A DNA stretch of 64,000 nt from an uncultured Verrucomicrobiota bacterium (lineage in GTDB: Bacteria; Verrucomicrobiota; Verrucomicrobiia; Chthoniobacterales; JACTMZ01). Position numbers and translations under genes: made by a program. The stretch lies in contig CAJBKE010000055.1 in assembly GCA_903953565.1 (NCBI GenBank), positions 1-64,000 of the forward strand, given 5' to 3'. Below are positions 35,126-57,526 of the stretch, piece after piece. Below the pieces are notes generated by a model. The model made no database searches, was not told the DNA's origin, and saw only the letters and a list, made by a program, of their open reading frames with translations. Position 1 is the first letter of the stretch; every line of letters starts with the position of its first letter.

Positions 35126-35299
35126 ATGACCCGTTTTTTGCTTCCGATTCTCATCGGCGCGACGGTCGGCGCTGCCCTGGGTTACTTCGGTCAATGCACC
35201 TCCGGCACCTGCCCTCTCACCGCCACATGGTGGCGCGGGGCGATCTTCGGCGCGCTCTTCGGTCTCGTTGTTGCCTGGCCCCCATCCTCTGTCTCGTGA
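35126..35299 (+). CDS. DUF6132-like small membrane protein
   Basis: A 57-residue gene from ATG 35126 to TGA 35299. Two hydrophobic stretches (LLPILIGATVGAALGYF and GAIFGALFGLVVAW) flank QCTSGTCPLTA, the C-x4-C motif typical of DUF6132/YtxH-like proteins of Bacteroidota and Verrucomicrobiota. These are often near rhodanese or thioredoxin-like genes; the function is unknown. Its stop overlaps the GTG of the following gene. Confidence 0.75.
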   Translation: MTRFLLPILIGATVGAALGYFGQCTSGTCPLTATWWRGAIFGALFGLVVAWPPSSVS

Positions 35300-35568
35300 A
35301 GACCATCACCATCACCGAGGCGAAAAAGCACCTCGGCGCCTGCCTGAAGGACGCCGTGGACGGAGCCAATATCGGCATCATTTGCGGATCACGCATCGTG
35401 GCCCTGCGTCCCGTGGAGGTGACATCGATGGACTTAGACGAGGTGGGCGATGCCGACACCGACAAGCTGACCGCCGAGCAAAAAGACCGCCTCTACGCCC
35501 GACTGAAAAAGGAGCGCAAGGACGCCAAGCGACGGCGGAAGGAACTGCTCGGCAGCGTCGAACCGTAA
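35296..35568 (+). CDS. Orphan Phd/YefM-like antitoxin homologue
   Basis: 90 residues from the GTG at 35296, overlapping the upstream stop by four bases. KTITITEAKKHLGACLKDAVDGANIGIICGSRIVALRPVEV matches the Phd/YefM N-terminal domain. The rest is a highly charged tail (YARLKKERKDAKRRRKELL). No toxin follows; a repeat element begins 7 bases after the stop. It may regulate another locus or be a remnant. Confidence 0.7.
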   Translation: MKTITITEAKKHLGACLKDAVDGANIGIICGSRIVALRPVEVTSMDLDEVGDADTDKLTAEQKDRLYARLKKERKDAKRRRKELLGSVEP

Positions 35569-35575
35569 CGCATTC

Positions 35576-35641
35576 GGTGGATCGCGCCGTCCCGGCGCGA
35601 GCATTCTGTTCTCCTATCGCGATGGGACATCGCGATCCACC
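35576..35641. repeat. Palindromic repeat family A copy
   Basis: GGTGGATCGCGCCGTCCCGG followed by CGCGA, then a variable segment, then TATCGCGATGGGACATCGCG and ATCCACC. Outer arms GGTGGATCGCG and CGCGATCCACC are perfect complements, enclosing two inner hairpins. Confidence 0.85.
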
Positions 35642-35695
35642 GGATCCTCTGTGCCGCCGCTCCATTTCTTGACCGCTTGCGAAGCCTCGAGAATA

Positions 35696-35711
35696 CTGGA
35701 CATATGTCCAG
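35696..35711. promoter_or_regulatory. Perfect palindrome over the lexA start codon (candidate LexA box)
   Basis: CTGGACATATGTCCAG is a perfect 16-base palindrome whose centre contains the ATG of lexA (35704). The core TGGAC-N4-GTCCA has the same spacing as the TGTTC-N4-GAACA motif that I recall being reported for Verrucomicrobia LexA. Autorepression through this site is inferred. No Shine-Dalgarno is obvious upstream. Confidence 0.6.
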
Positions 35712-36339
35712 CAATCCTACAGCGCGGCAAAAACAGATCCTCGACTACATCCGGCGCCATCGCACGCGACACGGCCTACCGCCGACCGTGCGCGAGATCC
35801 AAAACCATTTCGGCTTTGCCAGCCCCAACGCGGCAGCCTCCCACCTGCGTGCGCTGGAAAAGAAAAAACTCCTGCAGCGCGAACCCGGCTCAGCCCGCGC
35901 CTTGCGCGTCATGGGAGACGATCGCAAGGAGGTCACGGCCATCCCCATCTACGGCGACATCCCGGCGGGTTTCCCCGACACCCGCGAACAGCGTCCGGAT
36001 GGCTGCGTCTACGCAGATCTGGACTCGCTCGACATCCGGCGCACGGCGCGGACCTTTGCCGTGCGCGTGCGCGGTGATTCCATGACCGGCGCACACATTG
36101 TCGACGGTGATCTCGTCGTGCTCGAGTTGCGCGAACCGAACCACGGCAACATCGTGGCCGCGTTGATCGACGGCGAGACGACTTTGAAACGCTATCTCGT
36201 GCGCAACCGGCGTCCGTTTCTCCGCGCGGAAAACCCGAAATATCCGGACCTCATCCCCGCGCACGAGCTGGTCATCCAGGGCGTGATGATCGCCCTCTTC
36301 CGCAAGCCGAAGGACGCGGGACGCCCGATCGAGCCATAG
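35704..36339 (+). CDS. lexA: LexA repressor
   Basis: 211 residues from the ATG at 35704. The winged-helix domain (1-70) has PPTVREIQNHFGFASPNAAA. The cleavage site is A88-G89 in GDIPAGFP. The catalytic dyad is S126 in RGDSMTGAHI and K162 in ETTLKRYLV. It represses the SOS regulon until RecA-ssDNA triggers self-cleavage. The start codon lies inside a perfect palindrome, and a family A repeat begins at the last base of the stop. Confidence 0.96.
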   Translation: MSSNPTARQKQILDYIRRHRTRHGLPPTVREIQNHFGFASPNAAASHLRALEKKKLLQREPGSARALRVMGDDRKEVTAIPIYGDIPAGFPDTREQRPDGCVYADLDSLDIRRTARTFAVRVRGDSMTGAHIVDGDLVVLELREPNHGNIVAALIDGETTLKRYLVRNRRPFLRAENPKYPDLIPAHELVIQGVMIALFRKPKDAGRPIEP

Positions 36340-36404
36340 GTGGATCGCGCCGTCCTCGGCGCGATAATTCAAACGGAAATCGCGATGGGACATCGCGATC
36401 CACC
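36339..36404. repeat. Palindromic repeat family A copy
   Basis: Starts at the last base of the lexA TAG stop: GGTGGATCGCGCCGTCCTCG then GCGCGATA, a variable part, and ATCGCGATGGGACATCGCGA then TCCACC. One mismatch (CTC for CCC) in the left loop. Confidence 0.85.
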
Positions 36405-36412
36405 AAAAACAA

Positions 36413-57460: not shown

Positions 57461-57526
57461 GGTGGATCGCGCCGTCCCGGCGCGATATTCCATTCAGAAA
57501 ATCGCGATGGGACATCGCGATCCACC
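57461..57526. repeat. Palindromic repeat family A copy
   Basis: GGTGGATCGCGCCGTCCCGG then CGCGATATTC, ATCGCGATGGGACATCGCGA and TCCACC, 12 bases after the dxs stop and directly preceded by CTGTAGCGTC, the family B head. Confidence 0.85.

Follow-up and report, generated by a model that had tools for sequence, protein, structure and literature searches.

Organization of the lexA locus

The window – the whole 64-kb stretch of DNA that was analysed – contains a lexA gene whose start codon lies inside a short palindrome and directly downstream of a recognizable promoter (Table 1). The 211-aa product carries both domains expected of a LexA repressor (Pfam LexA_DNA_bind, PF01726, 73.8 bits; Peptidase_S24, PF00717, 74.2 bits; both above cut-off), and its top matches in the PDB are LexA repressors. 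In an alignment with E. coli LexA (7b5g), the motifs IPAGFP, VRGDSM and TTLKRY show that the Ala-Gly cleavage site and the Ser/Lys dyad are present. A TTG in frame further upstream (35677) was considered as the start of lexA and rejected: it sits between the -35 and -10 elements, and the residues that follow it are unconserved.

Table 1. Features at the start of lexA. Positions are those of the window; a dot denotes a feature without strand.
Feature	Position	Strand	Basis
lexA, 211 aa, LexA helix-turn-helix and S24 peptidase domains	35704..36339	+	Pfam and PDB matches
-35 element TTGACC	35669..35674	+	CTTGAC invariant in 9/9 genus lexA loci; flanks and spacer vary
-10 element AATACT	35692..35697	+	NATACT in 8/9 genus loci, AAGACT in 1
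Predicted transcription start (A of ATG)	35704..35704	+	-35/-10 spacing
Candidate LexA operator, extended 22-bp form ATACTGGACATATGTCCAGCAA	35693..35714	.	kept in position in 9 genomes; binding predicted
Perfect 16-bp palindrome CTGGACATATGTCCAG, inside the extended operator	35696..35711	.	sequence inspection

The palindrome spans the ATG (35704-35706), as the first-pass annotation had stated, and it is perfect over all 16 bp. Its half-sites, TGGAC on both sides, are arranged as 5-N4-5, which is indeed the spacing of the TGTTC-N4-GAACA motif to which they had been likened. Three perfect 16-bp palindromes were seen in the window, compared to 1.5 expected, and the chance of finding one in any given 40-bp stretch is approximately 1 in 1000. 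Because palindromes are this common by chance, the sequence of CTGGACATATGTCCAG alone proves little: the argument is carried by conservation. Elsewhere in the window there is no match to CTGGACATATGTCCAG, even when up to three mismatches are allowed, and a matrix built from the operators of the genus gives the lexA box the top score (36.0; runner-up 16.2).

A predicted leaderless promoter

The -35 and -10 elements of lexA are separated by 17 bp, and the palindrome begins with the last two bases of the -10 element. If the A of the ATG is taken as +1, the -35 element occupies -35 to -30 and the -10 element -12 to -7. Since these are exactly the textbook distances, the lexA mRNA is predicted to be leaderless and to start at the A of the ATG. 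The gap between the -10 element and the ATG is 6 nt in 9/9 genus genomes. Leaderless transcription, previously raised as a possibility, thus appears likely from promoter spacing shared by all nine genomes; the accompanying remark that lexA lacks a clear ribosome binding site also held, no Shine-Dalgarno-like motif being found before its ATG. Lacking one is usual across the window: with rough gene calling, such motifs precede the first ATG in just 6/40 genes, compared to 9.7% per random position. A search of the genome for TTGAC-N17..19-TANNNT-N5..7-RTG returned 19 matches, 18 of them ending in ATG (reversed control: 11), from which it follows that leaderless promoters are probably in use at other genes of this organism.

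Conservation of the palindrome within the genus

Footprints were aligned, anchored on the lexA start, for nine genomes of the same genus (all those with a full-length lexA). The DNA upstream of lexA is random in these genomes except for CTTGAC, the 17-bp spacer (constant in length, variable in sequence), the -10 element and the box. Counted from zero at the A of the ATG, CTTGAC falls at -36 to -31 and NATACT at -12 to -7, and the box extends to +7.

Further candidate operators in the genome

The first-pass annotation had expected copies of TGGAC-N4-GTCCA near other SOS genes. For the strict motif this was not borne out: there are no copies near recA, dnaE2 or imuB. The four exact sites in the genome comprise the one at lexA and three within unrelated open frames; with one mismatch the motif is no commoner than when reversed as a control, and none of the sites inspected was a second conserved SOS site. 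In the genus genomes read, recA lies directly behind gyrB, apparently in an operon (G000:C19:763-4303, L228), and neither upstream of nor within gyrB-recA is there a box (best matrix score 3.9, compared to a training minimum of 24).

A relaxed motif, however, did reveal one strong and conserved site. This site, ATACTGAACATTTGAACAGTAT, is located ~25 bp upstream of the GTG of a single 1387-aa open frame (G000:C37:62513-66676; L167:4514-8677) in which a DinB-type Y polymerase is joined to DnaE2 (domains IMS, IMS_C, PHP, DNA_pol3_alpha, finger and HHH; the SIDE motif is present). No description of a single-chain dinB-dnaE2 fusion was found in the literature searched. A plain matrix, trained on lexA boxes only and scored on selected stretches (for example the window and six 12-kb fusion loci), gives ATACTGAACATTTGAACAGTAT a score of 25.6, for which 0.005 occurrences per genome are expected by chance; it ranks the fusion box first in 6/6 of the 12-kb loci, including two divergent versions that score 15.6 and 12.1. 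The fusion box shares the 5-N4-5 inverted repeat of the lexA box, from which three bases set it apart, two of them in the same half. Its own halves are CTGAAC and CTGTTC, so that TGTTC is found on one side only. In the other genus genomes read the box is retained, while the upstream neighborhood differs.

In the fusion promoter, TTGAAC lies inside the box and is followed, after a spacer of 17 bp, by a weak -10 element (GTAAAT, TTAGAT or CTAAGT). These elements place the predicted start within ~1 base of the GTG/ATG: despite the weak -10, the fusion gene may therefore be leaderless as well. Approximately 30 other Verrucomicrobia carry a dinB-dnaE2 open frame after lexA, on the same strand. That the fusion is next to lexA in relatives and elsewhere, with a box of its own, in the genus of the window suggests that an ancestral lexA and dinB-dnaE2 operon was split in this genus.

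A covariance model trained on lexA boxes only, with 150 candidates scored per genome, recovered the lexA sites and a single near-match (G035:C6:115734), and left the fusion box unreported. The near-match (E 0.6-0.7, nearest start 255 bp away) was judged a product of chance. The first-look filter of the model appears to lose divergent sites, such that the absence of weaker sites is unproven. A combined model (lexA plus fusion boxes) yields, in the genomes with lexA, the lexA site plus the fusion site where the fusion was found, with one borderline extra site in G035; it finds no operator in G043 or G080, the genomes without a full-length lexA match. In these two genomes (both incomplete drafts) no dinB-dnaE2 fusion was found, and a short S24 (UmuD-like) protein adjoins a Y polymerase gene.

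Predicted operators and recognition helices across the phylum

A 6-N4-6 palindrome with at least 5/6 pairs is present at the lexA start in 64 of the 81 Verrucomicrobiota loci, compared to 8.9% in upstream zones; in 38 of the 81 it is perfect (background 0.5%). Most often the operator starts 17-19 bp ahead of the ATG; in clades where the two overlap, this distance is 8 or 14 bp. The proposal that an operator lies over the lexA start codon thus stands in one respect – the candidate is conserved in nine genomes – but not in the exceptional character given to it: overlap or direct contact with the start codon is common across the phylum.

Half-sites vary by clade: CTGGAC (here), NTGTTC, CTGTAT (as in E. 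coli), CTATCC, CTACTC, CTGTCC, CTGCTC and GTGAAC. Across the phylum, operator sequence varies together with the recognition helix of LexA: the correlation with helix 3 holds when the rest of the DNA-binding domain is controlled for (partial Mantel r 0.458, p 0.0005). Two residues, numbered as in E. coli LexA by transfer through the alignment, stand out. Lys/Arg45 is paired with G as operator base 1 in 12/12 cases (0/51 without Lys/Arg45), and Arg41 with A as operator base 3 in 11/11 (0/52 without Arg41). The tree holds few independent changes (three supported pairs for residue 45, two for residue 41), and all are in the expected direction.

These data bear on what the palindrome is. Very probably, CTGGACATATGTCCAG is the operator at which LexA of this genus represses its own gene, acting by block and release and accompanied by a second operator at the fusion gene; binding, repression, leaderless transcription and induction are the parts of this explanation that we infer. 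Given that the identity of the bound protein is likewise something we infer, the site could belong to another repressor that controls lexA. This is very unlikely: across the phylum the operator bases co-vary with residues 41 and 45 of LexA itself, the site is absent from G043 and G080, and the second site accompanies the gene of a translesion polymerase.

A hairpin in the RNA, controlling translation of lexA from its start codon, would also produce a palindrome here, since with a transcription start further upstream CUGGAC and GUCCAG could pair over the AUG as a stem closed by a loop of 4 nt. However, a 5' end at the ATG keeps only half of the palindrome in the mRNA, and the RNA so shortened folds no better than shuffled versions (z 1.69). 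Pairing is broken without compensation in three loci (L008, L010 and L011), the halves of the fusion box (CTGAAC and CTGTTC) are unable to pair at two positions, and the operator bases track the helix of a protein: a hairpin is highly improbable. That coding and promoter constraints produced the palindrome by chance has next to no probability, for although ~1.5 perfect 16-bp palindromes are expected per 64 kb, this one holds the same position in nine genomes despite variable flanks, and start-site palindromes are enriched over background phylum-wide from 9x (imperfect) to ~90x (perfect).

A model for lexA regulation

According to the autoregulatory model, a LexA dimer bound to ~35693-35714 would extend over the -10 element, +1 and the ATG, such that RNA polymerase would be blocked at the lexA promoter. 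Upon DNA damage, RecA-stimulated self-cleavage of LexA would free the promoter, and transcription from the A of the ATG would then give a leaderless lexA mRNA. The promoter of the dinB-dnaE2 fusion gene would be under the control of the same LexA via ATACTGAACATTTGAACAGTAT. Both the steric block and its release by cleavage are taken from established LexA biology.

Systems of this kind are known, and the present one amounts to ordinary autoregulation by LexA in a dialect particular to its lineage. Less ordinary, as far as can be judged from the DNA, are the predicted superposition of operator, +1 and ATG, the apparent two-operator regulon and the divergent half-site. A broader reading, to which we give even credence, is that the SOS regulon of the genus was reduced to two operators on predicted leaderless or near-leaderless promoters (only lexA and the single-chain DinB-DnaE2 mutasome) with recA outside LexA control, and that LexA in this phylum repeatedly switched operator sequence via residues 41 and 45, its site at the lexA start remaining in place: in effect, a readable code from amino acid to base.

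Comparison with known systems

Erill et al. are said to have described, in 2016, the Verrucomicrobia LexA motif TGTTC-N4-GAACA, with helix 3 setting specificity and a mutagenesis cassette among the targets. The present system is alike in phylum, in its symmetric 14/16-bp geometry, in helix 3 as apparent determinant and in having a predicted mutagenesis target; it differs in its half-sites (TGGAC at lexA, TGAAC/TGTTC at the fusion gene), in having no recA box and in a candidate lexA operator that contains the start codon. The E. coli LexA box is CTGTATATATATACAG. Common to both are the 16-bp CTG-N10-CAG frame and a corresponding LexA helix (SPNAAASHL here, SPNAAEEHL in E. coli), whereas the inner bases are GAC here and TAT there, and here a single candidate operator straddles the ATG.

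In Mycobacterium tuberculosis, a member of an unrelated phylum, lexA is leaderless, with translation and transcription starting at the same position (PMC2897130). That coincidence is alike in the two (predicted here), while the passage concerned describes no operator at the start codon. The imuA-imuB-dnaE2 mutagenesis cassette is under LexA control (PMC3919608). A Y-family protein and DnaE2 take part in both systems – LexA control being predicted in the present case – but here a DinB-type Y polymerase with a SIDE motif and DnaE2 form one 1387-aa chain.

If the model is true, a single stretch of 22 bp would combine four roles, those of -10 region, +1, initiation codon and repressor site, tying the first codons of lexA to the sequence of the operator, and the operator to the helix of LexA. 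An SOS response confined to mutagenesis, with two genes and no recA, would, if true, be to our knowledge among the smallest. The paired helices and operators across the phylum amount to a natural experiment on changing the DNA specificity of a global repressor, and they yield two testable single-residue predictions: residue 45 for base 1 and residue 41 for base 3.

Other features around lexA

An interspersed palindromic repeat resembling REPs (core CGATGGGACATCGCGATCCACC) lies on both sides of lexA (35577-35643 and 36340-36405) and again near 57505. Exact copies of the core number 26 in this genome, four in G068, one in G056 and zero in eight other genomes of the genus. Upstream of lexA, a short open frame (35194-35568) looks by eye like a putative Phd/YefM-type antitoxin.
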